Positions 652 to 45,616 of a stretch of DNA of 46,309 nt are shown one piece after another; the first letter of the stretch is position 1; the number at the start of each line of letters is the position of its first letter. The DNA is from Sulfurimonadaceae bacterium (GTDB lineage Bacteria > Campylobacterota > Campylobacteria > Campylobacterales > Sulfurimonadaceae). The notes beneath the pieces were generated by a model, which worked only from the letters and a program-made list of their open reading frames with translations, was not told the DNA's origin and did not search any database. The stretch is taken from NCBI GenBank assembly GCA_016744905.1, contig JADGDM010000015.1, positions 2,981 to 49,289 on the forward strand. The letters are read 5' to 3'. The translations under genes and the position numbers were made by a program.

Positions 652-1809
652 TTATAGAGAGAGGTATTTTTTAATCTCTTCTACTCTATCTGTCTTTTCC
701 CAAGTAAATTCAGGAAGTTCACGACCAAAGTGCCCATAAGCAGCAGTTTTTCTATATATTGGACGTAAAAGGTCCAATGAGTCTATAATTCCAGCTGGCG
801 TTAAATCAAAAAGTTCTTTAACACACTCTTCAATTTTATTTTCATCAACGACACCTGTTCCATGTGTATCAACCATAATAGAGACTGGTTTAACAACACC
901 AATAGCGTAAGCCACTTGAAGCGTAGCACGTTCACACGCACCTGCTGCTACAAGATTTTTAGCTACGTGGCGCGCTGCATATGCGGCAGAACGGTCAACC
1001 TTGGTTGGATCTTTTCCAGAAAATGCACCACCACCATGAGGACAAGCCCCACCGTAAGTATCAACAATAATCTTTCTACCTGTAAGTCCAGCGTCACCTT
1101 GCGGCCCACCAATAACAAACTTACCTGTAGGATTAATATGATAAATCACATCATCACTTAAAAGATCAGCAGGGATAACGTGTTTAATAACCTCGTTAAT
1201 CACATCTTCTCTCAATTGATTTTGATCGATTCCATCATGATGTTGCGTAGACACAACAACAGTCTCAACTGAAACTGGCTTTGAATCTATATACTTTACA
1301 CTGATTTGTGCTTTTCCATCAGGACGAAGATAAGGAATAATACCTTCTTTACGTACCTGCGCTAAACGCTCAGTTAAGCGGTGACACAAGTGGATAGGTA
1401 AAGGCATAAGTTCTGGTGTCTCTTTACAAGCATACCCAAACATTAAACCTTGATCACCTGCGCCAATAGCACCATCTTCTTGATCAACGCCTTGGTTGAT
1501 ATCAGGAGACTGCTCACCTATTCCATTTAATACTGCTGCCGCTCTATAGTCGAAACCATAGTTTGCATCGGTATAACCAATTTCTTGGATCACTCTTCTT
1601 GCAATTTCTTGCATTGGCGTATACGCCGTTGTCTTCAATTCGCCTGCAATTACACAAAAACCATTTGAAACTACTGTTTCACACGCCACACGTGACGAAG
1701 GATCTTTAGCAATAATATCATCCAGAATAGCGTCGCTAATCTGATCAGCCATCTTATCAGGATGCCCTTCTGTTACAGACTCAGAAGTAAATATGTACTC
1801 TTTTGTCAT
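652..1809 (-). CDS. metK: S-adenosylmethionine synthetase
   Basis: Makes S-adenosylmethionine from methionine and ATP in the cytoplasm. At 385 residues it has the normal family length. The N-terminal GHPDK motif (residues 15-19) lies in the ATP site, the GAGDQG hexapeptide is near residue 117, and the glycine-rich [16 protein letters not shown] loop lies near residue 258; all look intact. An AAAGG precedes the ATG at 1809. It is divergent from the peroxiredoxin gene, sharing a 153-bp intergenic region, and appears to be transcribed alone. One palindrome copy (GGCGCGCT at 970) lies in the coding region. Confidence 0.98.
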
Positions 1810-1902
1810 CGATTACCTTTATTGATTATCCTCAAAATTATTTTGAAGTTTGATATACTATCTGAAAGCAGTTTAAAGTTTTTATCCCATTTAAAATAAA
1901 CA

Positions 1903-1962
1903 AAGTTTTTTAATTTTGGATGAGATATACTTCCATACTTTAAAAAAACACAAGGAAATTAT
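1903..1962 (+). promoter_or_regulatory. Probable promoter and RBS of the peroxiredoxin gene
   Basis: TATACT at 1926-1931 is a fair -10 element in AT-rich DNA, and AAGGAA lies 6 bases before the ATG. No clear -35 box is seen, which is normal for epsilonproteobacterial sigma-70 promoters. The divergent metK promoter must share this 153-bp region. Confidence 0.35.
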
Positions 1963-2559
1963 ATGTTAGTAACAAACAAAGCTCCAGACTTTACAGCAAC
2001 AACAGTTTTAGGAAACAACCAAATCGTTGAAGATTTCAACTTATACGAAAACTTCGGTGAAAACGGTACAGTTTTATTCTTTTATCCACTAGACTTTACA
2101 TTTGTATGTCCTTCAGAGATCATCGCTTTTGATCACAGACTTCAAGAGTTCAAAGATCGTGGTGTTGAAGTTATTGGTGTTTCTGTTGATTCACAATTTT
2201 CTCACTTTGCATGGAAAGAGACTCCAGTAAACAAAGGTGGTATCGGCCAAGTTCGTTATCCATTAGTTGCTGACTTAACTAAAGAGATCTCTAAAGCGTA
2301 TGACGTACTACTTGATGGTGGTGTTGCTCTACGTGGTTCATTTTTAATTGACAAAGACGGAACTGTTCGTCATGCAGTAATCAATGACCTTCCACTTGGT
2401 CGTAACATCGATGAGATGATTCGTATGGTAGATACTATGCTTTTTACTAACGAGCACGGTGAAGTTTGTCCTGCTGGTTGGGCTAAAGGTGACGAAGGTA
2501 TGAAAGCTGACACTGAAGGTGTTGCAGATTATCTTGCTAAACACGAAGATGATTTATAA
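1963..2559 (+). CDS. 2-Cys peroxiredoxin (AhpC/Tsa family)
   Basis: Cytoplasmic peroxidase that reduces H2O2, organic peroxides or peroxynitrite and is re-reduced by a thioredoxin-like partner. The peroxidatic cysteine is C49 in the FTFVCPSE motif. The resolving cysteine is C169 in EVCPAGW, giving the typical 2-Cys class. Length 198 matches AhpC/TsaA of Helicobacter and Campylobacter. The C-terminal tail after C169 is long enough to carry the helix that makes such enzymes sensitive to over-oxidation, but the YF motif itself is replaced by YL. No AhpF or regulator gene is adjacent. A GC-rich palindrome lies just beyond the stop. Confidence 0.95.
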   Translation: MLVTNKAPDFTATTVLGNNQIVEDFNLYENFGENGTVLFFYPLDFTFVCPSEIIAFDHRLQEFKDRGVEVIGVSVDSQFSHFAWKETPVNKGGIGQVRYPLVADLTKEISKAYDVLLDGGVALRGSFLIDKDGTVRHAVINDLPLGRNIDEMIRMVDTMLFTNEHGEVCPAGWAKGDEGMKADTEGVADYLAKHEDDL

Positions 2560-2577
2560 TATAAACCTCTTCACTCT

Positions 2578-2595
2578 AAGCGCGCTAGCGCGCTT
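2578..2595. repeat. 18-bp perfect palindrome from two abutting AGCGCGCT copies
   Basis: Two copies of the octamer abut 19 bases after the peroxiredoxin stop, giving AAGCGCGCTAGCGCGCTT. As RNA it can form a 7-bp GC-rich stem with a CUAG loop, so it may act as a terminator, although no U-run follows. It is the only intergenic and only tandem copy in the window. Confidence 0.7.
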
Positions 2596-2612
2596 AACCC
2601 CTCCAATTAAAG

Positions 2613-2735
2613 ATGAACAATCTCCTACTTAGAAAAATACTTTATTATGAAGATTCAGAGAATAAAAGTAGCACTTCAAGAAGAGAGTATGCTATAAAAA
2701 AGCTTTCACGAGCGCAAAAGCTTGACGTTGATTAA
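2613..2735 (+). CDS. Possible small protein, 40 aa, unknown
   Basis: An ATG-to-TAA frame of 40 codons lies between the peroxiredoxin gene and the convergent outer-membrane gene. The product is lysine/arginine-rich with a helical, charged C-terminal half (ending KLSRAQKLDVD). It has no signal peptide and no cysteines. Codon use is ordinary for the window, but there is no clear Shine-Dalgarno sequence, and the frame overlaps the 3' end of the opposite gene by 4 bases. It could be expressed by read-through from the peroxiredoxin gene, or be chance. Confidence 0.35.
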   Translation: MNNLLLRKILYYEDSENKSSTSRREYAIKKLSRAQKLDVD

Positions 2736-4397: not shown

Positions 4398-5659
4398 AAA
4401 GTATACTCCTGTACAAAATTTAAAGCCTTGCTATCTGCGTAAGCCAGATGGTGCCAATCTTTAAGCGGTTGAACCAAACTCAAGCGCGCTGGTGAGGTGG
4501 CACGTGAGAGTGCCACATAAAACTGAGAAGGAGCAAAGATCTCTTTTGTCTCGATAATAAGATCTTCTATGCTCATCCCTTGTGATTTATGAATAGTAAT
4601 GGCAAAGGCTAGTTGCAGTGGAAACTGATACACACTCAGTACCGACTCTTCAACAAACTCTTTTTTACCTTCAATAGTCTTCTCTTTCCATACCGTTTTA
4701 TCTTGAGAGACCTGCTCTAATTTTACCACAACCCCATCGTCTTTTTCAACGTACACTTTTGAATCTTCAAGCTTTACAATCTTAGCGCGCTCACCATTGA
4801 AGTAGTTCCAAGAGTTACGTGTAAAAAGGATGGGTGCACCTACTTTTAATTGAAGTTCTATATTGATGCGCGCATCACTAATAAAACGTTCAACTTCTTT
4901 GTCGTTTAGATTTTTATCATGTCGAATAATTTCTGCTCTGTACGTCTCCTCATCACTTTCAAGAAAACTCAACTGTTCTTGATTGTGTCGTAGCGCGCTG
5001 GCATTTTTTCCAAACAGATAGGTAAAGGCACTAAGATTTTCTGGAAGTGGTTTGATAAGATGGTGAAGATAGTAGTGTTCTGCCTCACTAACATTAGCAA
5101 AACGAACCGCATTAAGCACTTCAATAAAATCACTGTCATCCGTTCTATACACCTTGGTTAGATTAATCGTATGCATCTCAAATGCACTCCAAGACTCAGA
5201 CTCAAAGGCAAACATCACCTCTGCGTACCCACGAACAACAGGAGGCAATTGTAAAAAATCACCTACGAGTAAAAGTGCCCCAGTAAACTCAGACTGTAAA
5301 AGACGCAGACGAATCATATCCATCAACGAAGCACTCACCATAGAGACCTCATCAATAATAATCAAATGCATATTCTTAATTAGCTTTTTAGTCCTTTTTT
5401 TAGGCTCATACTTTTTACGACGTTCCAGATCTTCTATACTATCAGCGATACCTAGATCAAAAAAACTATGTAATGTTTGTCCACCAAGGAGTGTTGCTGC
5501 CATTCCTGTAGAAGCAAGTTTTGCCACTTTTTTTGCTTCAGATTCGTAATGGGCGATGACTTTACGCGTTAAAGTAGTTTTACCAACTCCTGCGCCACCC
5601 GTTAAAAAGATATTTTGAGCATTTCCAAGTTTCGCTACCAGTGATTCTAAATTATCCAA
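4394..5659 (-). CDS. PIF1-like superfamily 1B DNA helicase
   Basis: A 421-residue ATPase. The Walker A motif is GGAGVGKTT (about residues 21-29). A helicase motif Ia (STGMAATLLGGQTLHSFF) follows at about 49-66, and the Walker B/DEVS motif (IIIDEVSMVS) at about 99-108. A LVGDFLQLPPV motif III is near 136. The C-terminal UvrD/RecD-type domain holds LAFAITIHKSQGMS (motif V) and VALSRA (motif VI). This order fits the short bacterial PIF1/RecD2-like helicases, which unwind 5'-3' at forks, G-quadruplexes or R-loops. It is more compact than RecD2 and lacks an N-terminal nuclease-like region. It begins 9 bases after the FecR gene ends and overlaps the next gene, so it may be the fourth or fifth gene of one transcript. 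Three AGCGCGCT sites lie within it. Confidence 0.85.
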   Translation of the reverse strand: MDNLESLVAKLGNAQNIFLTGGAGVGKTTLTRKVIAHYESEAKKVAKLASTGMAATLLGGQTLHSFFDLGIADSIEDLERRKKYEPKKRTKKLIKNMHLIIIDEVSMVSASLMDMIRLRLLQSEFTGALLLVGDFLQLPPVVRGYAEVMFAFESESWSAFEMHTINLTKVYRTDDSDFIEVLNAVRFANVSEAEHYYLHHLIKPLPENLSAFTYLFGKNASALRHNQEQLSFLESDEETYRAEIIRHDKNLNDKEVERFISDARINIELQLKVGAPILFTRNSWNYFNGERAKIVKLEDSKVYVEKDDGVVVKLEQVSQDKTVWKEKTIEGKKEFVEESVLSVYQFPLQLAFAITIHKSQGMSIEDLIIETKEIFAPSQFYVALSRATSPARLSLVQPLKDWHHLAYADSKALNFVQEYTL

Positions 5660-5668: not shown

Positions 5669-6430
5669 TTAGTTTAACGGACCGATTTGGTCACTATTTT
5701 CAGGTCGAGTCACGGTACTTTGTATTGTTGTCAAATCAGTAACCTTCTCAATTATCTGAATATCCTCAGTATCTTCTTCTACCTTAATAGTATTGAATTG
5801 ATCCAGAACTTCTTGGGTGGTATTAGAAACATCAACTCTCTCTTTTTGTGTTACGCTAAGTTCTTCTTGTTTGGCTTTTTTAAACTCTTTCATCTCTATC
5901 TTTTTTTGAATAGGGATGTTTTTCTCAATACTTACCATCTCCCCACTAGGAACAACCATCTGCTTACCAGGAATATCAATTGTAATGGCCCCTTTTAAAC
6001 AGGCGATTTTTTCACTGTCCATATCAATTTCAGCCATAAAAATTGTTCCTCTAATCCCTATCGTAGCAGAACGAGTCTTGATTTTAAAACGATTCGGTGC
6101 AATTTTCCCTATCTTCCCACTCACTGCTTTAAAAAAACCTTTGTTTGCTTTAAAATTTAATTCTGGGTTTTGTGAATCTGCACTGTATCTGTCAAAAGAG
6201 AACTCTGAATTTGGACCGATAGTAATAACCGTCTTATCATTTAAAATAACCTGTACACGACTTCTCGACTCTGTGACTATCAGATCTTTTTCATTAATAC
6301 TGTCTGAGATAGAGAGTTCTAAAGTATTCGTAGCGCGCTGTACTTTTGCCTTACCTACTAAAGAAGAGACAACCCCGATATTAGCGAAAACAGTGATGGT
6401 GCAGAGCAGTAAAAATATTAATATTTTCAT
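5669..6430 (-). CDS. FecR domain periplasmic protein
   Basis: 253 residues. A signal peptide (about 1-16) is followed by a FecR-type beta domain at about 20-130. That domain has the family hallmarks: a dense run of short strands, VITIGPNSEFSFDRY near 72 and the IGIRGTIFMAEI segment near 127. The C-terminal 80 residues are charged and probably disordered. Iron-dicitrate FecR proteins have an inner-membrane anchor and a FecI partner. This one has neither, and belongs to the stand-alone exported FecR group often found beside TPR/barrel genes. It follows the TPR-barrel gene by 9 bases. AAAGG precedes the ATG. The specific role is unknown; a scaffold or sensor role in the envelope is an inference. 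Confidence 0.8.
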   Translation of the reverse strand: MKILIFLLLCTITVFANIGVVSSLVGKAKVQRATNTLELSISDSINEKDLIVTESRSRVQVILNDKTVITIGPNSEFSFDRYSADSQNPELNFKANKGFFKAVSGKIGKIAPNRFKIKTRSATIGIRGTIFMAEIDMDSEKIACLKGAITIDIPGKQMVVPSGEMVSIEKNIPIQKKIEMKEFKKAKQEELSVTQKERVDVSNTTQEVLDQFNTIKVEEDTEDIQIIEKVTDLTTIQSTVTRPENSDQIGPLN

Positions 6431-6439: not shown

Positions 6440-7717
6440 TTAGTAATTGTATTGTAGTGATAACGAGACCACATCTTTATCGTAATGTGATGGCACATAG
6501 TTTGAGAGGTTTGCAATATGTACATAATTTAAAGCTGTTTCATACTTTTTCCAAAATACCTTAGAAAAATCCAATGAAACATGATTGTAGTGATCCAACC
6601 TCGCTTCTGATTCATTCATCAGTACATCTTCAAAAATTGTATATCGGTACTGATAAGAGAGCTTAGTAAAGTACCCACTACCAATATGATAATTCATACC
6701 CAAGGCAAACTCATAGAGGTTTTTATTGATATATTTTACTGTCGAAACCTCTTTGGCTTTAAAATAATCTGCTAAAACTGAGCCAAAAATATAACTCTGC
6801 GCATACACTTTAAACAAAGAAAATTTCAAACCAAATTCATTATCATCTCTATTTTTCAAATCTTCTCTAATATAACTACGACTTTTATAAATCAACTGCA
6901 TGGTACTGATATAGTTCTCATTATACACCCTATTAAGTGTAGGGGTTATGGAGAGTGTATGTAATAGATTGTTTTCTAAGTAGTAGAGATCATCATATGC
7001 AACAGGCAGATACAGGCTTGCCTTATCAAATTTATATCCAATCCCAAGTTCTACTTTTGCGAAATAGATATCATACTGCTCAGCGCGCTCATAGTTCTGC
7101 CCATAAAGGTTTAAGTCAGCTTGTAAATACCAGGCATTTTTTGCACCCATATCATACAGATAGCTTAAGTTGGCCCCATACGAGAGGAAAGCACTCTCTT
7201 TTACATCTTCACTCGCAACCGCATTCGATCCAATATCTTGATAATAAGCATCTAAGTTTCCACTACCAGCATTTGCATTTACATTGCTATCATATCCAGC
7301 TTTGGCATTGATATTGACTCTAAATGTAGAGCGCTCATTTTTCTCACTCAGCAGTGCTTGTAAGGTATTTTGATCATTGGCAGAGAGGGTATACTTTTTT
7401 AATTTTTCTACCAAAGCCTTAGATTCTTTTTTCATATTCTGTTTTTGATAAATAGTCGCTAGGAATAGAGCTGCTTCAATATTCTCTTCATCTAAATTCA
7501 ATACACGTTCATACGCACTCATCGCGTCTTCTTCATCGTCTAACTCTTTTGCACAGCGCGCCCAAAGTAGTTGTTTATGTATATCAGTAAAACCAGCATA
7601 ATCTTTTTCTATCATATTCAATGCGCTTCTATAATCTTTTTCATCATAAAATTCTTGCGCACTTTGAGCAAATAGTGTTAAGTGAAGCAGTACAAAAAGA
7701 AGTATCTTTTTCATCAT
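6440..7717 (-). CDS. TPR plus outer-membrane beta-barrel protein, Slam-like
   Basis: 425 residues. After a signal peptide (about 1-17) come three or four TPR-like helical pairs (about 20-125, including AYERVLNLDEENIEAALFLA). From about residue 135 to the end the sequence is a run of amphipathic beta strands rich in Tyr, Leu and Asn, and it ends in SLQYNY, a good BAM signal. N-terminal periplasmic TPRs joined to a C-terminal barrel is the layout of Slam (surface lipoprotein assembly modulator, DUF560) proteins. Sequence-level identity to Slam cannot be judged here. The start overlaps the stop of a large lipoprotein gene (ATGA), which supports a joint function. Alternative: a generic barrel with assembly TPRs. 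Confidence 0.6.
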   Translation of the reverse strand: MMKKILLFVLLHLTLFAQSAQEFYDEKDYRSALNMIEKDYAGFTDIHKQLLWARCAKELDDEEDAMSAYERVLNLDEENIEAALFLATIYQKQNMKKESKALVEKLKKYTLSANDQNTLQALLSEKNERSTFRVNINAKAGYDSNVNANAGSGNLDAYYQDIGSNAVASEDVKESAFLSYGANLSYLYDMGAKNAWYLQADLNLYGQNYERAEQYDIYFAKVELGIGYKFDKASLYLPVAYDDLYYLENNLLHTLSITPTLNRVYNENYISTMQLIYKSRSYIREDLKNRDDNEFGLKFSLFKVYAQSYIFGSVLADYFKAKEVSTVKYINKNLYEFALGMNYHIGSGYFTKLSYQYRYTIFEDVLMNESEARLDHYNHVSLDFSKVFWKKYETALNYVHIANLSNYVPSHYDKDVVSLSLQYNY

Positions 7718-9978: not shown

Positions 9979-10400
9979 TTTGTAAACTCTTTTCGAACAT
10001 GATTCAAATCTTCAGAAAAGACGTCATATTTAACAAAACCTATCGTCTCGTAAAAATGCTCACCACTTTTAGGGTCGATAAAAAAGATTGTAGGGTTACG
10101 GGGCGTTTCAAATTCAAGTGGAAATTTTCCTTGGTCATACTTTTTATCTTGAATCACCGTAATCACCTCTTTATCTACACGAAGTTTGATATCTTCATGT
10201 GCCAAGGTACGACGCTCTAATTTTCTACACCAAGGACAGTAATCTGCCACAATCACCAACATCAAAGGTTTGTTCTCTTTTTTCGCCACACTCAGCGCGC
10301 TGGAGTAATCTCTATAAAACCCCATATCTTTCGCATAATCATCAATCTTCGCTCCAAAGAGTGAAAATGTCAAAATTAAAACCATCAATAAACTTTTCAT
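9975..10400 (-). CDS. Periplasmic thioredoxin-fold protein
   Basis: 141 residues. A signal peptide (about 1-17) is followed by a thioredoxin-like domain with a CPWC active site (about residues 55-58, in DYCPWCRKLE) and a cis-proline-like segment NPTIFFID. This is the SoxW/thioredoxin_7 type, which reduces protein disulfides or delivers reductant in the periplasm. No DsbD/CcdA homologue is in the window to supply electrons. AAGGA precedes the ATG. One AGCGCGCT site (10294) encodes Ser-Ala-Leu in it. Confidence 0.8.
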   Translation of the reverse strand: MKSLLMVLILTFSLFGAKIDDYAKDMGFYRDYSSALSVAKKENKPLMLVIVADYCPWCRKLERRTLAHEDIKLRVDKEVITVIQDKKYDQGKFPLEFETPRNPTIFFIDPKSGEHFYETIGFVKYDVFSEDLNHVRKEFTK

Positions 10401-10482: not shown

Positions 10483-11688
10483 TTAAGCTTCTAGCTGAGT
10501 GTCTTTGAAGATTTCAAGCACTCTTCCAAAAGGAACAGGAAGATTTTTCGGACTCACCCAAATCACTTCATTCAGTGGTTCAACCTCAGGAAACACCCCG
10601 AAGGTATCACTAAAGTAAAGGACTAATGAGCTGCTGTCTAAATGGTCTTCGATATGCTCAAAAACCACCCGAAAGTCAGTTCCCCCTCCTCCTTTAATTT
10701 CAATGTCTAAAGATTCACCTGTTCTAAATGTTTCATGAGAGTGAACCTTAGCATCAGCAACGATCATCTCAATCTCATACGAATTAAACAGCAACATAAT
10801 AGACTCAACCTCACTTAGAAACTGTGAGAGTAAAAACTCATCAATCGAGCCCGAAGAGTCAATCGCAATGATGAGTTTCATCGTTTCACTAAAAGCAGAG
10901 GGGAGATAAATACCCGTATAGAGTAACTTTTTAGAAGGGGGAAACATTCGATAATCATCACGATAATATGAGTCAACAATATTATTTAGCTCAGCGCGCC
11001 AGTCAACCAAACTCTCAAAGTCAAGCTCAAAAAAACGTTCTAGTCCTAAAGGAATCTCATCCATGGCCGTCGATTTGTCCAGCGCGCTGTTGTTATGGTT
11101 TTCCCACTCTTCCTCTTCTTGTTTGTCTATGGTTTTTTCAACGTCATCAAACTCCATAGCCGGTCTATTTTTATCATCACTCTCAGAGTTGTCATGATTT
11201 TGATGTTCTTGCTGCTTTTTTCTATTGTTTTCATTAAAACCGGTGTCATTCTCTTCATCCTCATTAAACTCTTCATTTGAGATCTCATCTTTGAGCATCG
11301 CATAAATCTCTTCCGCGTAGAGACCATCAAAACGAGGTTGATAATTAACATGAGGAGGAATCTCTTCCATATTTTGAACCAGCATGGCGTTGATAGCGAA
11401 GTCCGTACTCAGTTGCCAAAGCCAAGTCATACGGTTGTTTTTACGATTGTCATGTGCCAAAGAAGCGTGCATCGCCCCATTTGAGAGGACAAAGCCTATC
11501 TCATCAAGACTCAGCGCGCTGAGATATTCATCATTATAATCAAGACGAATTCCATCACTCATAAATGCTTGAATATTATCACTTTGATGCAGTTCAAGTT
11601 TTGATGCCAACGTTCCAAAATAGGGTTGTTCTATTAAAAGCTTGGCCTTTGCTTGAGAAATTTTCGCATCAAGAGTGAGTTCAGTCAT
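10483..11688 (-). CDS. VWA-domain protein with DUF2201-like N-terminal domain
   Basis: 401 residues, cytoplasmic. The N-terminal half (about 1-130) resembles the putative metallopeptidase domain DUF2201. The middle is very acidic and Asn/Glu/Lys-rich (about 140-205), so probably disordered. The C-terminal half is a VWA-like domain: the MIDAS sequence DSSGS (near 280) and a GGGGTDF loop (near 338) are present. Proteins of this type are the partners of MoxR/CobS-type AAA+ ATPases, and the AAA+ gene lies directly upstream, 16 bases away. Usual DUF2201 proteins carry HExxH; here the equivalent stretch reads NGAMHASLAH, without the Glu. The role is probably assembly or remodelling of a client complex; the client is unknown. 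Confidence 0.8.
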   Translation of the reverse strand: MTELTLDAKISQAKAKLLIEQPYFGTLASKLELHQSDNIQAFMSDGIRLDYNDEYLSALSLDEIGFVLSNGAMHASLAHDNRKNNRMTWLWQLSTDFAINAMLVQNMEEIPPHVNYQPRFDGLYAEEIYAMLKDEISNEEFNEDEENDTGFNENNRKKQQEHQNHDNSESDDKNRPAMEFDDVEKTIDKQEEEEWENHNNSALDKSTAMDEIPLGLERFFELDFESLVDWRAELNNIVDSYYRDDYRMFPPSKKLLYTGIYLPSAFSETMKLIIAIDSSGSIDEFLLSQFLSEVESIMLLFNSYEIEMIVADAKVHSHETFRTGESLDIEIKGGGGTDFRVVFEHIEDHLDSSSLVLYFSDTFGVFPEVEPLNEVIWVSPKNLPVPFGRVLEIFKDTQLEA

Positions 11689-11704: not shown

Positions 11705-12700
11705 CTAGGCTAAAAGAAAAGCAAATTTTTCTACCCATTTGCCAAAACCATTAAGATGTTCCATTTTGATGTCAGCGCGCTGAAGATCTTGTACCATCAT
11801 CACCGCAAATTCACTCTGCATCGCTAGAGAGTACATCAATAAGTTTTCTACCTTTGCATCTTCTGGCGCGCTAAGTATCTTAGAAACCAAACCAGCACTC
11901 AGTGCGTAAAGAACATCGATTTCTTTGCTCTGGTCACTGCTTTCACCACTTAAAATAGCATCAAGATCAGGCAGACGACCCATCACCTTAGAAAAGCTCA
12001 AAAAGTTTACAGCGCGCTCACGACCAATAGCTCCGGCAACGCTTTCTAGAACCAAGTTGGCGGGCATACTACTTTTTAAAATATTATTTACAAATTCCCA
12101 AGACCGTGGTGTCGCAAAACTTTTTTCATTTAGCTTTGGATCAAAACTAAAAAGATCTTCATTTTTATACGCAATATAAGCGATGATTCGATCATCAATA
12201 CCAGCAGAATATGCCCAGTCTTTCCAATCTTCCACACTCACTTCCATCTCAAGGTGTACAAAACGATTCGCTAAGGGCGATGGCATTTTATACACTATCC
12301 CTCTGTCACTTTCACGATTTCCCGCAGCGACAATCGCGTAACCATCAGGAAGTGTGTACTCACCTACTTTTCTATCAAGTATCAGTTGATACGCTGAGGC
12401 CTGCACGGCAGGAGGGGCGGTATTTAACTCATCTAAAAAAAGTATACCTACCCCATCACGAGGTAAAAATGCAGGGGGTGCCCACAGTGCGGTATGTGAT
12501 TCTTTATCATAAAAAGGTATCCCCTTCAGATCAGTAGGATCCAACAAAGAGAGACGAAGATCGATGAAGTTAACATCTTTCTCTTGAGCAATCTGCTTCA
12601 CAATAGAAGACTTACCAATCCCCGGTGCGCCCCAAAGAAAAGTAGGAATTTGTTCATCCACCAATGCGCTCAGTGACGCAGTACACTCTTTAGCCAACAT
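11705..12700 (-). CDS. MoxR-type AAA+ ATPase (AAA_5)
   Basis: 331 residues from the ATG at 12700. I chose this start because AAAGGAG sits 7 bases before it; an in-frame ATG at 12754 would add 18 residues deep inside the upstream gene and has no such site. The Walker A is GAPGIGKSS (about residues 22-30), Walker B is ILFLDELN (about 84-91), and sensor 1 is VAAGN (near 124). The arginine-finger area reads MPSPLANRFVHLE. This is the MoxR/CobS class that pairs with VWA proteins to insert cofactors or remodel targets. It overlaps the preceding gene by 11 bases and is followed by the VWA gene. Confidence 0.9.
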   Translation of the reverse strand: MLAKECTASLSALVDEQIPTFLWGAPGIGKSSIVKQIAQEKDVNFIDLRLSLLDPTDLKGIPFYDKESHTALWAPPAFLPRDGVGILFLDELNTAPPAVQASAYQLILDRKVGEYTLPDGYAIVAAGNRESDRGIVYKMPSPLANRFVHLEMEVSVEDWKDWAYSAGIDDRIIAYIAYKNEDLFSFDPKLNEKSFATPRSWEFVNNILKSSMPANLVLESVAGAIGRERAVNFLSFSKVMGRLPDLDAILSGESSDQSKEIDVLYALSAGLVSKILSAPEDAKVENLLMYSLAMQSEFAVMMVQDLQRADIKMEHLNGFGKWVEKFAFLLA

Positions 12701-13415
12701 ATTCTCTCCTTTGAGCCAATAACTCACGCCAAACATCATGTGCATTTTTTTCAATACTTGCTATTAATGCATCTGAAGTATTTGGATGTCGAATAATTCG
12801 CTCAACAATCTTCATACTCGAGTTGTCCGAGCCATTTTTAATAATCTCTTTAATAGGTTTCAAAGCGCCAATATAATCAATAAACGCACTCTCTTCTGTC
12901 TCACGTAGCAGTTCCATAAAACCTGCATTGGTGTACTTAACATTCGTAGAGTGCTCTTTATTTGAGTAAAAACGGTAAACAAAGGCCGAACTCATGTCAC
13001 GGTTTTCATCATTTTCATAAAGCCCTTCTCCTTGCCAGTCATAAAGCTTTAAAAGTTTCAAAAAGAGTGTATCACTGATATAATTATTTTTTAAAAAGAC
13101 CATCAAACGGTCTTGATTATTACTCAATTTCAAACTCATCAAAAGACGGTTATCATCCAAATTTTCACATAAGGCTCGTTCAAACGCTTCTAGAAAAAGA
13201 ATGGTTTTACTCTCGTCTTTAGAAGCAGCATAAAGTTTATCTTCATCTACAGGACTAATCATACGTCCCTCAACGACAAATTTCACATCATCATCTAAGG
13301 TCTCAGCGCGCTCAACATTATAGTTTTTAAGTAGTGTATCAAACTCTTCTAGGTTTAAAGCTCTTGTTTTTCCAAAAAGGTAAATACGACTATTTTCTAT
13401 TGTTTTTAAATTCAT
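12690..13415 (-). CDS. Unknown protein, first gene of the MoxR/VWA operon
   Basis: 241 residues, soluble, no signal peptide or membrane segment. Residues about 8-55 (with RIYLFGKTRALN and VERAETLDDDVKFVVEG) look like a diverged BRCT-type domain; this is a pattern judgement only. The rest is helical and rich in Leu, Asn and Asp, possibly HEAT-like. The final codons overlap the start of the AAA+ ATPase gene, and both are followed by the VWA gene, so it is likely a third component or adaptor of that machine. There is no obvious Shine-Dalgarno sequence. Confidence 0.7.
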   Translation of the reverse strand: MNLKTIENSRIYLFGKTRALNLEEFDTLLKNYNVERAETLDDDVKFVVEGRMISPVDEDKLYAASKDESKTILFLEAFERALCENLDDNRLLMSLKLSNNQDRLMVFLKNNYISDTLFLKLLKLYDWQGEGLYENDENRDMSSAFVYRFYSNKEHSTNVKYTNAGFMELLRETEESAFIDYIGALKPIKEIIKNGSDNSSMKIVERIIRHPNTSDALIASIEKNAHDVWRELLAQRREYVG

Positions 13416-26740: not shown

Positions 26741-27261
26741 AAAATATCACCCTAATTCGTCATGGAGAAGTTGAAGCGCGCTATCAAGGTGCGTATAATG
26801 GATGGATAGATATTGATCTTTCTCCTAAGGGTGCACAGGACATGAAAATATTAGGACTGAGTTTTAGCGAATCTGATGCCATCTACTGCTCAGATTTGAA
26901 ACGCTGCCAAAACTCTCTTTCATTTTTCAAAACAAAAAAACAGATTATTTCCAAAGAGCTACGTGAAAAATCATGGGGTGAAAATGAGGGTAAAACCTTT
27001 GATGAGATTGGGATAGAGTATGAAACCTTTATGCAGTACATCTACGCGCTCGGAGGAGAAACACTTAATATCTTTGAGATGAGAGTAAAAAAAATATGGG
27101 AAGAGATAAAGAGCTCAGAGCATAAAAACATCACGGTACTTACACATGGTGGTCTTATTCGGATGATTTACTGTTTAGAACGTGACATTGATTATGAAGA
27201 GAGTTTTAACATCGACGTCGGATTTGGCTCACTACATCATTTTAATTTTGAAGGTTCATAG
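26737..27261 (+). CDS. cobC: Histidine phosphatase, probable alpha-ribazole phosphatase
   Basis: Probably removes the 5'-phosphate from alpha-ribazole phosphate or cobalamin phosphate. 174 residues from the ATG at 26737, which overlaps the cobS stop (ATGA). A TTG 39 bases earlier would also be in frame but lies inside cobS. The phosphohistidine motif LIRHGEVEARYQGAYNG is at about 6-22, with a second His in LTHGGLIRMIY near 141. This places it in the phosphoglycerate-mutase-like family. The operon context indicates CobC. Confidence 0.85.
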   Translation: MKNITLIRHGEVEARYQGAYNGWIDIDLSPKGAQDMKILGLSFSESDAIYCSDLKRCQNSLSFFKTKKQIISKELREKSWGENEGKTFDEIGIEYETFMQYIYALGGETLNIFEMRVKKIWEEIKSSEHKNITVLTHGGLIRMIYCLERDIDYEESFNIDVGFGSLHHFNFEGS

Positions 27262-30198: not shown

Positions 30199-30211
30199 TT
30201 AAACCCTTTTG

Positions 30212-30597: not shown

Positions 30598-30621
30598 CCC
30601 TAACTATCGCTCTTCTTCTCT

Positions 30622-33122: not shown

Positions 33123-33136
33123 TACTCCTTTATCCT

Positions 33137-35041
33137 CTAATATTTGGCGTTTAGACCCATGTACAAAGAACGTCCAGCAGTGGCGTAACCATCTACTGTT
33201 TGGTAATATACATTTGTAATGTTATCTAGTTTTCCATAAACGGTGATAAAGTCATTGACTTCAACATTTGAGACAAAATTAATTACAGTGTAGAAACCTG
33301 TCTGCGCACCTTCATCATTGGCTCTGTTGAAACGTTGTCCGATATATTGTCCATTAAGTCCCAAATCAAAAGTTTCAGTAGCATAATAAATAACTGAAGC
33401 ATCTACTTGATCTTTTGGTCGGCGCGCTAGTGCTTCACCATTGGCATCTTTGACATCAAGGTAGGTATAGTTTGCACTCACACCTACAATATCAAAGAAG
33501 TAATCTTCATAAGCAATCTCGATCCCTTTAAAGACAGACGTTCCCTCTACATTTTTATATTGACCACCCGTATACGTTACAGCGTCATCATAGGTATAAT
33601 CAATAAAGTCACTTACTTCATTGTAAAAACCAGTTAATGAAAGAATATCATTACCAATACTAATCTCGAAACTGCTTGTCGATTCTGGTTTAAGTGCGTC
33701 ATTTCCCACTAAAGAAACATCGCCTTTATAGTCTGTATATGAAGGGGCATATAGTTGATACAGTGAAGGTACATTATAACCCGTACCAATGTTTGAACTA
33801 AGATAGATATCATTATAAACAAACTGCTTAAGTCCAAGTTTTCCCGTCAGTTTATCATCAAAACTGCTGTATTTATCATAACGAATCGACTCAGTGATAA
33901 TAGTATTGAGACCTTTAAAAAGGCTCAGTTTGTTGTAGTTTGTTGTAAAAGCAGAGAGGGCATCGTACTCTTTATTAAGTTCTGTTCCTCCTGACTTATC
34001 TTGTTTAAAAAGTTGATACGAAGCGCCAAAACGAATAAAGCTGTTTTCGATATAAGCGATTTTATCATCAATTTTCACTTCAGAAACAGAACCTTCATAA
34101 CCACCATACTGATCCCTATCGAATATTGAAAGATTGTACTGCGCACTTATATCGTTAACCGAGTCAGTATGTTTGTAAGACAAGGTATAAAAACGGTTTT
34201 TTAGATAGTTATAATAATATGAAGTCCCCCATGCGTTTTCCTCCACATTCTCAGCATCAATACCTGCACTTGCGTCATACTCAGTATAGGCATTAATCAT
34301 TTGAAGACTGGCTTCTACTCTGTCATTTTCAGTGATATTGTATCCCGCTTTGAGGTTAAAAGTTTCATTGGTATATTTGTCTTTTTCATACCCTAAGTCA
34401 TCAAATCTTTTTCCATAATTCACATCACCTTTAACAGGTTCTGCTGAAGATAGATTATCACTATCAAAATATGATCCCCCCATAAGGACATCAAAGTCAT
34501 CCGTTGCATAAGAGGCTTGAAGTGAGGCGATTTTAGTATCAAATGAACCGTATTCTATATTTGCCTCACCATGAAGACCTTTTTGAGCACTTTTAGTAAT
34601 GATATTAATAACACCACCACTTGCATCCGCTCCCCAAACACCCGATTGTGCACCTTTTACAATCTCTATTTGTTCTACGTTACTCAACATCATATGCTGA
34701 ATTTGTGCACCACCGGTACCTGTAATATCGTTATAACGAATCCCATCAATCATCACTAAAGTACGCTTAGCACTGATACCACGAACAAACATGGATGATG
34801 TTTTACCTGTACCTCCATTACTGGTTGTCGCAATGTTACCAAGACGATTTAGTGCTTCTGATAGAGTGTTAATACGTGCCGCTTTTATCTGTCCAGCAGT
34901 AATGACTGTAACGCTTTCAGTCAAATATTTTTTCTTAACTTCCGTTCCTAATGAAGACTGAACTTCAATCTCTTCTAATTTAACTTCTTGTGCATAACTC
35001 ATAACCGCAAGCGCGCTGAGTGATAAAACTATCTTTTTCAT
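33137..35041 (-). CDS. btuB: TonB-dependent receptor, BtuB-like
   Basis: Outer-membrane receptor of 634 residues. A signal peptide (about 1-17) precedes a TonB box-like EIEVQS and the plug domain at about 40-155, with RGISAKRTLVMIDGIRYND and GVWGADASGGVINIITK. The rest is a 22-strand barrel ending in GLNAKY. Context next to btuFDC and cob genes suggests cobalamin or a corrinoid; family members may also take ferric chelates. It is 49 bases downstream of a Cys/His-rich gene. Confidence 0.85.
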   Translation of the reverse strand: MKKIVLSLSALAVMSYAQEVKLEEIEVQSSLGTEVKKKYLTESVTVITAGQIKAARINTLSEALNRLGNIATTSNGGTGKTSSMFVRGISAKRTLVMIDGIRYNDITGTGGAQIQHMMLSNVEQIEIVKGAQSGVWGADASGGVINIITKSAQKGLHGEANIEYGSFDTKIASLQASYATDDFDVLMGGSYFDSDNLSSAEPVKGDVNYGKRFDDLGYEKDKYTNETFNLKAGYNITENDRVEASLQMINAYTEYDASAGIDAENVEENAWGTSYYYNYLKNRFYTLSYKHTDSVNDISAQYNLSIFDRDQYGGYEGSVSEVKIDDKIAYIENSFIRFGASYQLFKQDKSGGTELNKEYDALSAFTTNYNKLSLFKGLNTIITESIRYDKYSSFDDKLTGKLGLKQFVYNDIYLSSNIGTGYNVPSLYQLYAPSYTDYKGDVSLVGNDALKPESTSSFEISIGNDILSLTGFYNEVSDFIDYTYDDAVTYTGGQYKNVEGTSVFKGIEIAYEDYFFDIVGVSANYTYLDVKDANGEALARRPKDQVDASVIYYATETFDLGLNGQYIGQRFNRANDEGAQTGFYTVINFVSNVEVNDFITVYGKLDNITNVYYQTVDGYATAGRSLYMGLNAKY

Positions 35042-37961: not shown

Positions 37962-40130
37962 TTAAGCACGGCCAAGAGAGATTTTATTGCCTTTGAACTC
38001 TAAGATCTCAACTTTAATAGCTTCACCTTCACTAAGAACATCAGAGACACGTTCAACACGTACTTCTGAAACTTTAGAGATATGAAGAAGACCATCTGTC
38101 CCACCTGGCAACTCGATAAATGCACCAAAGTCAACAATTTTCTTGACCTTACCATCGACAATATCACCAACCATGTACTCAATTTTTTCAGGTTTTGGTG
38201 CACTTGCAATGCCTTCAATATGCGCACGCGCATCTTGAACACGCTGCTTATTTGTTCCAGAAACTTTAACTGAACCTACTTTTTTGTCGATATCAATAGC
38301 TACTTCAAACTTCTCGATAATTTCACGAATAGTTTTACCTGCTTGACCAATAATCTCACCAATCATACTTGGATCAATACTGAAGATATCTCCACTAGGT
38401 AGCGCGTCAACAAATTCAATCTCTTCTACAGCATCATTCATGATATCAATAATATGTCCACGACCCTCTTTAGCTTGCATAAATGCCATTTTAAGAACGT
38501 CTAAAGAGATACCACCCAGTTTAATGTCCATCTGAAGTGCAGTAATTCCATTTTTAGAACCGGTTACTTTAAAGTCCATATCTCCATCATGATCTTCAAG
38601 ACCCATGATATCACTTAAAATGACGTGCTTGCCACCTTCACTTACCATACCCATTGCGATACCTGAGATCTCATCATTGACACTAATATCAGCAGCGCGT
38701 AGTGCCATATAACCACCACAAACAGTTGCCATTGATGATGAACCATTTGATTCTAAAATCTCAGAAACAAGACGAATAGTATGTGAAGGACGATCTAGTA
38801 CACACTCTAGTGCGCGCTTACCTAAGTTACCATGACCCAATTCTCTACGTTTTGGCCCAAGAACTGGAGAAGGTTCACCTACTGAGAAACCTGGGAAGTT
38901 GTAATGCACCATAAACTCTTCGTTTTGTGTACCTTTATCTTTAAGGTTTTCAAACATCTGTGCATCTTTTGGCCCACCTAAAGTAAGAACAACCAATGCT
39001 TGTGTTTGACCACGCGTAAAGAGTGCAGATGAGTGTGCAGATGGCAATACATTTGTTTCAATAGTAATAGGACGGATTTCAGTAACAGCTCTTCCATCAG
39101 CACGTACTCCCTCATTTAAGATTTGAGCACGAACCAATTCTCTTTTGTATGATTCTAATGTACGTTTTACTTCTGATTCATCAAAGTTTTCATACTTAGC
39201 AATAATCTCTTTACGAATACTACGTAACTCTGTAGCGCGCTCACTTTTTGCCATCTTAGTAATTGCCACTTTAACAGCATCTGTATATTCTGATTTTATC
39301 GTTTCTAAAACATCTGCACTCTCAGGGAAAGTCAGTAAGTTAAGTGGTGTAGTTGGTTTTTTATGTGCATCAAAAGCAGCTTCATAAGCTGTATTGGATT
39401 TTTTCAACTCATCTTGTGCTTGTGCTAAGATCTCGATTAACTCATCTTCGCTCATCGCATTTGATTTTGAAACACCAATGCTGTCCATTCCCATAGTAGG
39501 ATCGATCATTGGATCAATAATTGCCGCTGGAATAATTTCACTTTCAAAAGAGCCAATTGAACGCATCTCAATCATCAACATATCTTCTTTTGAACCTGCA
39601 AGATAAAGATCAAGTGTTGAATCACTCATCTGAGTAGATGTTGGATTGATAATTACTTCACCATCAACCTTACCTACACGTAAACCTGTAACAGACGTAT
39701 AAACATCGATATCTGAAACATACAATGCTGCAGAAGCTGCATTTAAAGCCAATGTTTGAAGATCAGACTCTGCGCCAACACTTAAAACCATAATCGTAAT
39801 CTGCGTTGGATGTGCGAAACCTTTAGGGAAAAGTGGACGAAGAGATCTGTCAATCACACGAGATGTTAAAGTTTCAAAATCACTTGGTTTACTTTCACGT
39901 TTAAAAAATCCACCTGGAAATTTACCAGCTGCGTAAGTTTTTTCAATATACTGAACCGTTAGTGGTAAAAAATCACCATCAACTTGATCGGTTTCATCAT
40001 AAGTAATGGTCGCCAACATTACTGTGTCGCCTGATTTCATCCATGCTGCACCATTTGATTGTGCGGCTACTGTATTTAGGCCATACTGCTCTGTTTTATT
40101 GTTTAATTCTAGGTCAACGTTATATTTCAT
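37962..40130 (-). CDS. pnp: Polynucleotide phosphorylase
   Basis: 3'-5' phosphorolytic exoribonuclease of RNA decay. 722 residues. Two RNase PH domains at about 10-140 and 325-545 (ADGRAVTEIRPI near 344, FMVHYNFPGFSVGEPSPVLGPKRRELGHG in pieces near 400), then a KH domain near 575 (MIGEIIGQAGKTIREI) and an S1 domain near 640-715 (GDIVDGKVKKIVDFGAFIELPG). All domains are complete. It follows the phosphoribosyltransferase-fold gene by 3 bases. One AGCGCGCT and one variant lie within it. Confidence 0.97.
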   Translation of the reverse strand: MKYNVDLELNNKTEQYGLNTVAAQSNGAAWMKSGDTVMLATITYDETDQVDGDFLPLTVQYIEKTYAAGKFPGGFFKRESKPSDFETLTSRVIDRSLRPLFPKGFAHPTQITIMVLSVGAESDLQTLALNAASAALYVSDIDVYTSVTGLRVGKVDGEVIINPTSTQMSDSTLDLYLAGSKEDMLMIEMRSIGSFESEIIPAAIIDPMIDPTMGMDSIGVSKSNAMSEDELIEILAQAQDELKKSNTAYEAAFDAHKKPTTPLNLLTFPESADVLETIKSEYTDAVKVAITKMAKSERATELRSIRKEIIAKYENFDESEVKRTLESYKRELVRAQILNEGVRADGRAVTEIRPITIETNVLPSAHSSALFTRGQTQALVVLTLGGPKDAQMFENLKDKGTQNEEFMVHYNFPGFSVGEPSPVLGPKRRELGHGNLGKRALECVLDRPSHTIRLVSEILESNGSSSMATVCGGYMALRAADISVNDEISGIAMGMVSEGGKHVILSDIMGLEDHDGDMDFKVTGSKNGITALQMDIKLGGISLDVLKMAFMQAKEGRGHIIDIMNDAVEEIEFVDALPSGDIFSIDPSMIGEIIGQAGKTIREIIEKFEVAIDIDKKVGSVKVSGTNKQRVQDARAHIEGIASAPKPEKIEYMVGDIVDGKVKKIVDFGAFIELPGGTDGLLHISKVSEVRVERVSDVLSEGEAIKVEILEFKGNKISLGRA

Positions 40131-43403: not shown

Positions 43404-44668
43404 TTAAGAGCCTGATAAGCGATATCTGTACGTATCTTTTTACCTGCAAAATGCACCTGCCCACAAAGTAAATACGCTCGGTCTCTTGCTTCTCTAATAG
43501 TATCACCCAAGCCAACACAAACAAGTACACGTCCACCAGTTGCAAGCAGTGTATCATCTTCCATACTTACCCCAGCGTAAGAGATATGTGTATTTGAGTT
43601 TACATCATCATGATGGATATCATCCACAATAATTTCTGCAGGTGTTGAACTTTTATATGGATAATCTTTACTTGCCATAACCACACCTACTGCTTTTTGC
43701 TCAGAAAACTCTACATTTAAAGTGTCCAATTGCTTCGTAGCTGCCTTATAAAAAAGCTCACGCGCTGGTGTTTTAAGTAGTGGCATCAAAATTTCACACT
43801 CAGGGTCACCAAAACGTACGTTAAACTCTAATGTAATTGGTTCCCCATTAACAACCATAATTCCGATAAAAAGAACACCCTCAAATGGAGCACCCTCTTC
43901 TTTCATACCATCAAGTGTTGGACGAATCACTCTATCTTTTACTTTTTGATATAACTCTTCATCCACTAATGGCGTTGGCGCATAAGCACCCATCCCACCA
44001 GTATTAGGCCCCTTATCTCCATCAAGGATACGTTTATGATCTTGTGCAGCTTGAAGTAAGATATAGTCTTCTCCATCACAGATAGCAAACATAGAAAGTT
44101 CATAACCGTCTAAAAACTCTTCTACAATGACATTATGACCTGCATCACCAAATGATTTACCACTTAACATCTCTGAGACAGCTATTTTAGCCTCATCATG
44201 TGTTGAGGCGATAATAACGCCCTTACCCGCACAAAGACCATCTGCTTTAACAACAACAGGCACAGGCAATGTTTCAATAAACTTAAATGCTGTTTCAATA
44301 TGATCTGTCTCGATATAGCGTGCAGTAGGAATATTATACTTGGCTAAAAAGTTTTTCATATATACTTTTGAACCCTCTAAGCGCGCTGCTGCCGCTGATG
44401 GACCAAAAATAGTTAAATCTTTTGCTTTAAAAATATCAACCACACCATCAACTAAAGGACCCTCTGGACCTACAATAGTTAAATCAATTTTGTTTTCAAG
44501 TGCAAAATCAGCTAAGTCATTATAATCTTTGATATTGATATTCTCACCCAAACGTGTTGTCGCACCATTTCCAGGACAGAAATAAAGTTTTTCCACTTCA
44601 CTGTCTTGATTTAAAGCACGTCCTATTGAGTATTCGCGTCCACCACTACCAAGTATTAGTATATTCAT
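43400..44668 (-). CDS. purD: Phosphoribosylamine-glycine ligase
   Basis: Second step of purine synthesis, forming glycinamide ribonucleotide with ATP. 422 residues, normal length. The ATP-grasp fold shows [12 protein letters not shown] (N-terminal), [13 protein letters not shown] near 139-151, [21 protein letters not shown] near 215 and [12 protein letters not shown] near 285. A GGAG lies 9 bases before the ATG. A long leader of about 280 bases, carrying a probable 6S RNA and a hairpin, lies upstream. It is the first gene of the purD, RDD, lptD, PRTase, pnp run. Confidence 0.97.
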
Positions 44669-44723
44669 GTATTGTTCTCCGAGATAAAATTTAGGGATTT
44701 CCGTAATTGGAAGATATAAGGTC

Positions 44724-44754
44724 TAGACTAAAGAGAATTTTTCTACTTAGTCTA
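44724..44754 (-). terminator. Hairpin between the 6S-like RNA and purD
   Basis: An 8-bp stem, a 2x2 internal loop and a 4-bp inner stem (TAGACTAA/TTAGTCTA outer) lie just beyond the 3' end of the predicted small RNA. It could be its terminator or a purD attenuator; no U-run follows directly. Confidence 0.45.
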
Positions 44755-44762
44755 AGTCTTAA

Positions 44763-44953
44763 AAACACCGGGTGGCCGTTACACAATCTGGCTTGGTTCT
44801 CAAAGCCGTAATTATAGCGAAGCGAGCGTCTTATCAGGTAGCAATTTCTCAAGTTAGACTTTCAAACGAAATCACCGCACACAAAGACATCTACGTAGTT
44901 CACTAAAAGAATATGTAGAACCCTCAATATGTGAATATCGCACCACTCAGATA
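44763..44953 (-). ncRNA. ssrS: Probable 6S RNA
   Basis: About 190 nt with a sigma-70 promoter directly upstream and no coding capacity. The ends pair: GAGTGGT (44942-44948) with GCCACCC (44770-44776), one A-C mismatch. Inside this, CACA (about 44930-44933) pairs with TGTG (44782-44785), and GGTTCT (44917-44922) pairs with AGAACC (44795-44800) exactly. Beyond them is a large open central region whose 3' strand contains TATAAT (44811-44816), then an apical stem including GATTTC/GAAATT. Closing stem, central bubble and apical stem is the 6S plan, which mimics an open promoter to sequester RNA polymerase. I recall 6S lying upstream of purD in epsilonproteobacteria; that synteny is the main outside support. 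Covariation was not tested. Confidence 0.65.
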
Positions 44954-44959
44954 AAAATA

Positions 44960-44988
44960 ATTATATCACTTTTGTAAGGTTTTAGCAA
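44960..44988 (-). promoter_or_regulatory. Sigma-70 promoter of the 6S-like RNA
   Basis: On the minus strand, TTGCTA (44983-44988), a 17-base spacer and TATAAT (44960-44965) fit a strong sigma-70 promoter, predicting a start near 44953. It overlaps the 3' end of hemD. Confidence 0.6.
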
Positions 44989-45616
44989 GTTGTACAGAGG
45001 CTTTTATCGTTGGAACTTCGGGGATATAAATTTTTATATTACGCGGTAATGCTTTTTGGGTCGTTGTTCCAATAGAGACTATGATATGTTGTTCATTAAA
45101 AGTAAACTGTTGTTCAAAACACGCTACACTTGAGGGAGAAGTAAAGATAAGTACTGCGTGCTGAGCCAATTCAAAAGATTTTAATTTCTTATTGCAAGAT
45201 GTTTCATAAATCACAACATCTTCTATCGCAATATTTTCTTCTCTTAAATTATCAGCGAAATCTGTAGCAATAATTTTTGCACGAGGATACAATATTTTTT
45301 TATCTGCATAATTTTCAGTAATCTTTTCTCTTAATTCAGTACCATAACCATGAACCATATCAATCACATCTGCACCATGTTTTACCGCCTCAGCTGCCGT
45401 AGGTTCTGAAATAGCAATAACACCCAACGTTTTCCAAGAACTATCAATAGAATCCAGCGCGCCAAAAATCTGCTTAGAGGTCGCCACAATCAAGTCATAT
45501 TTAGAAAAATCGATATCAACATCATAAAAGGTAGTTTCAATAATCGGAACATACTCAATAGAATCATCATAAGGTGTTTTAGAAAAAAGGTAAATTGGAG
45601 GTTTAGAAGAGTTCAA
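44966..45616 (-). CDS. hemD: Uroporphyrinogen-III synthase
   Basis: Cyclises and inverts ring D of hydroxymethylbilane, on the way to heme, siroheme and corrins. 216 residues, short like other epsilonproteobacterial HemD. The two-lobe fold is suggested by KYDLIVATSKQIFGAL (about 39-54), ILYPRAKI near 109 and VLIFTSPSSVACFEQQF (near 155). The start is a TTG with AAGGA 6 bases upstream. The family is divergent in sequence, so the call rests on these patterns. Its last codons overlap the 6S RNA promoter. Confidence 0.85.
   Translation of the reverse strand: MNSSKPPIYLFSKTPYDDSIEYVPIIETTFYDVDIDFSKYDLIVATSKQIFGALDSIDSSWKTLGVIAISEPTAAEAVKHGADVIDMVHGYGTELREKITENYADKKILYPRAKIIATDFADNLREENIAIEDVVIYETSCNKKLKSFELAQHAVLIFTSPSSVACFEQQFTFNEQHIIVSIGTTTQKALPRNIKIYIPEVPTIKASVQLAKTLQK

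Follow-up and report, generated by a model that had tools for sequence, protein, structure and literature searches.

The 46,309-nt stretch of Sulfurimonadaceae bacterium DNA analysed here (the window; 36.7% GC) carries 28 copies of the palindromic octamer AGCGCGCT, which is probably a highly iterated palindrome (HIP), a class of sequence known from cyanobacteria, occurring outside that phylum and linked, as far as sequence comparison indicates, to a resident DNA methyltransferase. We consider it likely that the octamer is a HIP-class sequence anchored on a methylated CGCG core; the best explanation of the whole, to which we give about an even chance, is a HIP of one lineage, written on methylated CGCG by a local molecular drive coupled to methylation.

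In 100 dinucleotide-preserving shuffles of the window, GCGCGC occurred 1.49 times on average (standard deviation 1.26) and AGCGCGCT 0.15 times (standard deviation 0.39), and no shuffle reached the 47 and 28 copies observed. These counts, like the A and T that flank 28 of the 47 GCGCGC sites and not the other 19, are exactly those given in a preliminary description of the window; the longer forms mentioned there do recur, as four copies of TCAGCGCGCTGA in place of the three it listed, two of which were misplaced by one base. The whole genome (3,006,917 bases in 122 contigs) contains 1152 copies of AGCGCGCT, or 383 per Mb, against 2 of a reversed control pattern. Unless stated otherwise, results for this genome come from a sample that comprises the window and 40 further stretches (612,124 readable bases, about 20% of the genome) and contains 254 copies of AGCGCGCT (226 without the window). 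Markov models of orders 1, 2, 3, 4 and 5 predict 1.9, 7.0, 17.4, 47.4 and 213.5 copies; the excess persists at orders 1 to 4 and grows stronger when the background is re-estimated with the sites masked (1.5–3.9 copies expected), while at order 5 little excess is left, since that model learns from the hexamers contained in the octamer, GCGCGC included. In a second-order ranking, of which the leading 24 over-represented octamers were printed, places 1 to 21 were taken by AGCGCGCT and words overlapping it, and an equal excess of unrelated GC-rich octamers, which would speak against an iterated palindrome, is therefore absent from the sample.

The extended consensus in the sample is YYYAGCGCGCTRRR, and we read the octamer as A-G-(CGCG)-C-T, with CGCG as its core. 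Among the ten flank classes of CGCG, GCGCGC was found 435 times (about 711 per Mb) against 16.7 expected from a first-order model, a 26-fold excess, and the one-sided class ACGCGC/GCGCGT 163 times against 48 (3.4-fold); the remaining eight stood at 0.17–1.04 of expectation, and seven of the ten lay below 1. CGCG as a whole is at 0.94 of its maximal-order expectation and thus not depleted. By the same first-order measure GCGCGC is at 0.52 in the relative G029 and at 0.70 in the relatives G008 and G011 taken together. The left AG and the right CT are associated (254 sites with both, 262 with one and 288 with neither; odds ratio 4.3); the corresponding odds ratio in G029 is 1.9, on only 7 double sites. 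One-off deviations, counted on both strands, fall mostly at positions 1/8 (148), followed by 3/6 (68), 2/7 (26) and 4/5 (19), and C is almost excluded from the first position (CGCGCGCT 4 copies, vs 84 of GGCGCGCT and 60 of TGCGCGCT on both strands).

With open reading frames (ORFs) called mechanically, 233 of the 254 sampled copies lie in ORFs, as might be expected if the octamer were an artefact of codon or amino-acid usage, or of chance. However, copies at codon offsets 0, 1 and 2 number 110, 67 and 56, where codon usage predicts 0.8, 0.8 and 0.5, and Markov models through order 4 fail as well, and we regard an explanation of this kind as practically dismissed. The preliminary description had come to the same view of a codon artefact from the occurrence of copies in different frames and on both strands; the use of all three frames holds for the window too (12, 9 and 5 copies in frames 0, 1 and 2 relative to the called genes, and 2 intergenic); a palindrome is strandless.

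Comparison across the phylum Campylobacterota, to which a reading of the window's proteins points, had been proposed in the preliminary description and places this genome first for AGCGCGCT among 397, with the octamer prominent in it alone. The 60 genomes of the same family, within 100 of the order (the present one included), hold 0–91 copies each; no further genome of its own genus was among those searched. The second-highest count, 400, belongs to G357 of family f14, whose sampled DNA has 48% GC and in which AGCGCGCT reaches only about twice what a second-order model predicts (25 vs 12.2 in 120 kb); the other f14 genomes sampled for at least 20 kb gave 14 vs 9.8 (G422), 2 vs 2.7 (G305) and 0 vs 1.1 (G156). 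These four, with raised counts and 42–48% GC, were the f14 genomes judged; G394 (324 copies) was left out, as it offers only tiny contigs. A phylum-wide motif was rejected on this basis, the f14 counts accompanying higher GC. The same distribution bears on sites that serve a bound protein. Chi-type recombination sites are common to relatives with the same recombinase, and known sites of DNA-binding or segregation proteins also tend to be common to relatives. The paucity of copies in the family members differs from what a Chi-type site would give, although recombinases were not compared, and it also counts against selection for a site bound by a DNA-binding protein, be it nucleoid-associated, involved in chromosome segregation or of another kind. 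Dispersal and the extended consensus YYYAGCGCGCTRRR would suit such a protein, but it leaves the G/C-flank pattern of CGCG and the decay of a single C (below) unexplained, and we find it quite improbable.

A search for a methyltransferase matching the octamer returned one C5-cytosine enzyme, of 417 amino acids (the only PF00145 match in the genome; locus L028/L056), and no match to PF01555; type I, IIG and D12 methyltransferase families were not searched. A divergent adjoining gene matches the PADLOC type II restriction-enzyme model PDLC03508 (E 5e-32, residues 61–259). A scan of named genomes for the methyltransferase gave 60 loci, 29 of them (L075–L103, from several phyla) with enzymes 52–70% identical and 31 with weaker homologs. 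Around the close homologs CGCG is at 0.61 of expectation (405/669), vs 1.01 (2552/2530) around the weak ones, and single loci have 0 vs 29.0, 0 vs 24.9 and 1 vs 21.8 expected. Within the phylum, the enzyme was detected at E ≤ 1e-30 in four of the 397 genomes, the present one, G383, G195 and G100; in G195, whose homolog is 54% identical, CGCG is the most avoided of the 16 tetramer palindromes (35/302, 0.12 of expectation), and in G383 it is at 0.33 (47/142). This pattern of avoidance makes CGCG the probable target of the resident enzyme. GGWCC, our first guess from avoidance, was dropped because its frequency is reduced to much the same degree around weak homologs (0.69 vs 0.73). The known CGCG enzymes M.BepI and M.FnuDII modify the outer C (PMC5367854). 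The target-recognition region is 41–58% identical to those of homologs (36% in G100), somewhat below the rest of the protein. A homolog of the adjoining restriction gene is present at 20 of the 29 close-homolog loci and another restriction family at five more (L075–L077, L079 and L102, the L076 member matching PADLOC PDLC03456); the two families align with each other only in short, chance-level stretches. PADLOC called type II restriction enzymes for three of the four neighbors tried, with no match for that of G383, and Pfam gave no name for the eight neighboring genes tried.

The way the octamer decays is consistent with this target. In ORFs, transitions away from it are most numerous at C3/G6, C3 being the outer C of CGCG, with 48 compared with 12 for C5/G4 (Fisher p = 4e-6) and 16 for C7/G2 (p = 9e-5). 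Among non-synonymous changes alone, there were 10 per 246 at C3/G6 vs 0 per 343 at C5/G4 (p = 2e-4). In the relatives G029 and G008, scaled for size, non-synonymous variants of the C7/G2 type number 10.7 and 9.6 and those of the C3/G6 type 3.0 and 0; in frame 0, AGTGCGCT is present at 3.1 and 6.4 and AGCGCACT at 3.1 and 0, vs 14 and 24, respectively, in the present genome. The simplest reading of the excess at C3 would be deamination of 5-methylcytosine.

Another methyltransferase might instead have served as the anchor, whether lost, unrecognised or of another class, such as a GCGC or GCGCGC enzyme, with the resident C5 enzyme arriving later. The methyltransferase and restriction genes themselves hold no octamer in 2.4 kb, close homologs elsewhere come without the motif (0 copies in the 29 loci, where 5 of the 31 weak-homolog loci have 1–2), GCGC outside CGCG is mildly raised (1.3–2.1 in six flank classes without CGCG), and the methyltransferase families outside our search would offer candidates. 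However, zero copies in 2.4 kb are fairly often expected at this density, and modification by a GCGC enzyme would reach C5 in addition to C3, yet C5 decays far less, which argues against such an enzyme. We judge another anchor unlikely.

Spacing and age bear on how the copies came to accumulate. There are 30 GCGCGC intervals shorter than 100 bp, vs 32.7 for random placement (standard deviation 5.0), and 162 shorter than 500 bp, vs 136.6 (standard deviation 7.6), so that intervals are random to slightly clumped, not evened out. Known uptake sequences are spaced more evenly than random, and a signal acting once per fragment would tend toward even spacing, which counts against the idea that competence machinery prefers methylated AGCGCGCT and that the site accumulates by biased transformation, as a methylation-marked uptake or recombination signal. 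ComEC, the only competence gene searched for, was found here and in each of the 21 genomes searched, but these include relatives without the motif. The density and genome-wide dispersal of the octamer would fit an uptake signal, as would its absence from a 9,965-base contig of the genome (L058), picked for having no GCGCGC (0 vs 7.1 expected, P = 8e-4) and bearing, to judge from translations, IS3-like transposase pieces and metal-efflux-like genes. This contig is apparently recent DNA without the motif, as would also suit a slow build-up of copies in resident DNA. Campylobacter jejuni takes up no DNA except that which CtsM has methylated at RAm6ATTY (PMC10046745), a precedent for such a signal, although the available text of that source does not describe the motif as iterated. 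We hold an uptake signal to be rather unlikely, though a serious contender.

As an alternative to a signal, we lean weakly toward a local drive of the repair type. Three points favor it: the spacing, the enriched one-sided class GCGCGT and a single rule, G before the methylated C, that fits the sites of unrelated methyltransferases. The version published for HIPs, mismatch repair by MutS and MutL directed by a methylated C after G (GmeC; Elhai 2015, PMC4390886), has a rule that methylation of the outer C of CGCG would satisfy, since G precedes this C on both strands. However, the MutL model TIGR00585 has no match in this genome and exceeded the cut-off in none of 31 genomes searched (12 weak partial matches), vs 11 of 14 controls (MutS was not searched for), and the published methyl-directed repair should therefore not operate here. 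C. jejuni, according to the accessible part of a review (PMC2734928), is without any mismatch repair. In the text available, the published model further predicts that sites saturate at about one per kb; this would be expected to even the spacing, and the spacing is not even. We consider the model as written very improbable. Very short patch repair of the Vsr type was likewise rejected, the genome having no Vsr match.

Local drive of another kind is what we propose in its place. The resident C5 enzyme would methylate the core, giving A-G-(m5C)-G-C-G-C-T on each strand, and a site-by-site drive coupled to this methylation would favor AG to the left and CT to the right of the modified core; over a long time, it could have imprinted the octamer on genes and proteins. 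Its likeliest engine would be a mismatched duplex, formed after replication or in recombination, in which one strand bears a complete methylatable site and a MutL-independent nuclease or repair activity removes the other; we put this heteroduplex step forward tentatively, as one possibility that we would not ourselves count as probable. More speculatively still, iterated palindromes may be a general product of MutL-free, methylation-coupled drive able to overwrite proteins, AG and CT being set around the core, with AGAWTCT around GAWTC as a second case in this phylum (see below); we are inclined to doubt so broad a rule.

The octamer has left its imprint on peptide composition. The tripeptide SAL, encoded in frame 0, occurs 259 times in sampled ORFs, 2.8 times its expectation from composition, and the octamer encodes 110 of these; ALS and LSA are also raised (1.71 and 1.57) without it. 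In relatives the SAL ratio is 1.24 (G029, 63 SAL), 0.75 (G008, 21) and 0.94 (G011, 5). QRA stands at 3.08 in this genome, vs 0.94 in G029 and 0.84 in G008, and ERA at 1.88, vs 0.93 and 1.19 (G011 gives 2.21 on 4 counts). From this excess over relatives, the spread of the octamer seems to have changed protein sequences. Among 100 ortholog-like pairs, only one of 54 site comparisons had a gap, which agrees with an origin of the sites by substitution and not by insertion. At frame-0 sites the residues S, A and L are matched in orthologs at 0.24, 0.33 and 0.52, vs 0.47, 0.61 and 0.66 elsewhere. We dropped the notion that the sites are peculiar in this lowered conservation, as 23 SAL tripeptides encoded without the octamer match about as poorly (0.30, 0.35 and 0.70).

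Several observations weigh against the account given here. The palindrome is absent from all three other enzyme-bearing genomes of the phylum (G195 has 4 copies of AGCGCGCT, where 13 of its 14 mates in genus g37 have 11–57 and G325 has 2), and the enzyme alone is therefore insufficient; many carriers avoid CGCG where this genome multiplies one flank context of it, and something beyond the enzyme must differ here. A restriction gene adjacent to the methyltransferase should deplete the site. The CGCG specificity rests on avoidance, methylation of the site is likewise inferred, and the avoidance is uneven: the closest-homolog locus, L102, has 14 CGCG vs 18.0 expected, and avoidance is slight or absent at L079, L085, L095, L098 and L101. 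GGCC, CCGG and GATC are also low in G195 and G383, and relatives without a close homolog have CGCG at 0.74–0.79. Codon constraint is a confounder in the decay test; with synonymous changes only, it gives 38 per 220 vs 16 per 179 (p = 0.04), and non-synonymous changes at C7/G2 (12 per 410) leave C3/G6 not clearly higher. The octamer is half as dense outside ORFs (0.23 per kb) as inside (0.44), which is not what a purely local drive predicts. No enzyme to perform the drive was found, about four-fifths of the genome's letters lie outside the sample, and some short pieces are given as N. Taken together, the roles listed in the preliminary description (methylation target, recombination or nucleoid-protein site, codon artefact) can be narrowed as far as those linked to methylation.

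Copies of the octamer in the window. Positions are 1-based within the 46,309-nt window; the tripeptide is that encoded across the site.
Feature	Positions	Strand	Frame	Tripeptide	Remark
Span of the 47 GCGCGC sites	970..45462	.			19 not A/T-flanked
Two adjoining AGCGCGCT	2579..2594	.			intergenic, after peroxiredoxin gene
AGCGCGCT	4483..4490	.	2	PAR	
AGCGCGCT	4784..4791	.	1	ERA	
AGCGCGCT	4992..4999	.	0	SAL	
AGCGCGCT	6332..6339	.	1	QRA	
AGCGCGCT	7082..7089	.	1	ERA	
AGCGCGCT	10294..10301	.	0	SAL	
AGCGCGCT	11081..11088	.	0	SAL	
Extended form TCAGCGCGCTGA	11511..11522	.	0	SAL	
Extended form TCAGCGCGCTGA	11772..11783	.	1	QRA	
AGCGCGCT	12011..12018	.	1	ERA	
AGCGCGCT	13305..13312	.	1	ERA	
AGCGCGCT	18718..18725	.	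0	SAL	
AGCGCGCT	20966..20973	.	0	SAL	
AGCGCGCT	21781..21788	.	0	SAL	
AGCGCGCT	21861..21868	.	2	IAR	
Extended form TCAGCGCGCTGA	25154..25165	.	0	SAL	
Extended form TCAGCGCGCTGA	25673..25684	.	1	QRA	
AGCGCGCT	26775..26782	.	2	EAR	
AGCGCGCT	30717..30724	.	2	LAR	
AGCGCGCT	31866..31873	.	0	SAL	
AGCGCGCT	31908..31915	.	0	SAL	
AGCGCGCT	32102..32109	.	1	ERA	
AGCGCGCT	32839..32846	.	0	SAL	
AGCGCGCT	35010..35017	.	0	SAL	
AGCGCGCT	39234..39241	.	1	ERA	polynucleotide phosphorylase gene (read from translation)
AGCGCGCT	44380..44387	.	2	AAR	

The head-to-tail pair at 2579–2594 could form a hairpin between genes. Positions 24472–35041 hold a cobalamin salvage and uptake cluster, read from translations as CobT, CobU, CobS, CobC and CobQ followed by Btu-type transport. 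Across the sample, ACTAGT is strongly avoided (17 copies vs 160 from a first-order model); GATC, CTAG and CATG stand at 0.57–0.69 of maximal-order expectation.

Family f14 has a second iterated palindrome, TAGAWTCTA (AGAWTCT around GAWTC), with 8587 copies in the 2.7-Mb genome of G306 against 118 of a reversed control, and 2188 vs 23, 2162 vs 30 and 1952 vs 67 in G305, G377 and G353. Genus g50 shows little or no excess and the present genome none (49 vs 76). Four sampled stretches of two genomes (L145–L148) have AGAWTCT dispersed through ORFs at 2.4–2.8 per kb. A literature search for TAGAATCTA with Helicobacter returned no match. In G403 and G446 (family f15, genus g43), the control sequence TCGCGCGA occurs 409 and 250 times, above the 76 and 155 copies of AGCGCGCT, and is possibly a third iterated palindrome.

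The origin of HIPs is an open question in the accessible text of the paper that defined the class (Elhai 2015, PMC4390886). A HIP outside cyanobacteria, in one genome of 397, with one candidate C5 methyltransferase and without a detected MutL, would be a natural experiment, and the published repair model can therefore be tested against this genome; the share of SAL tripeptides encoded by the octamer further suggests that a proteome can be remodelled through the action of a DNA-modification system. Among the literature matches listed, titles and abstract openings mention no HIP outside cyanobacteria, subscription papers being mostly outside reach, and matches listed for the literal octamer are unrelated by title. 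A viral scan for paired octamers gave at least 80 loci; among the matches listed, median GC was 0.618 and one (L320) was AT-rich.

HIPs are described by Elhai (2015; PMC4390886) as palindromic, usually at least 75% GC, dispersed and present at about 500–2500 instances per Mb. AGCGCGCT is likewise a dispersed, GC-rich palindrome (six of eight bases G or C), over-represented at 1152 copies in 3.0 Mb and, in the sample, 254 vs 7.0 at order 2; its density falls below that range, and that of GCGCGC within it. Part of its sequence is probably the site of a methyltransferase, the one C5 enzyme whose CGCG specificity we infer from avoidance around homologs; the C3/G6 decay excess would fit a methylated C preceded by G; and one-off deviations are commonest at the first and last positions, as in HIPs. 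The HIP1-like behavior claimed in the preliminary description is thus borne out in dispersion, use of all frames, outer-position deviations and a core that a resident C5 methyltransferase probably targets. HIP1 itself, GCGATCGC, has 0 copies in the sample. Both are GC-rich iterated octamer palindromes in which a methyltransferase site (CGATCG in HIP1, probably CGCG here) is extended by G and C; the present octamer differs in its sequence, its non-cyanobacterial host, its occurrence in one genome among those searched and the absence of a detected MutL. The alternate HIPs of Elhai (2015), GGCGCC in Calothrix PCC 7103, rCCGGy and GCsGC, are equally sporadic, in single cyanobacteria that each have a methyltransferase for the site, but they replace HIP1, whereas here there is no HIP1, the octamer ends in A and T, and a restriction gene still adjoins the methyltransferase. 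DNA uptake sequences (USS/DUS) share with AGCGCGCT a short motif iterated genome-wide, and the C. jejuni RAATTY mark a methylated palindrome; spacing here is not even, and the C. jejuni motif is not called iterated in the part of its source available. The CGCG type II restriction–modification systems M.BepI, M.FnuDII and CpaAII share the probable specificity and methylated base. An ordinary target of such a system is depleted in its host, as CGCG is in many homolog carriers, whereas the present genome keeps CGCG near expectation and multiplies one flank context of it.

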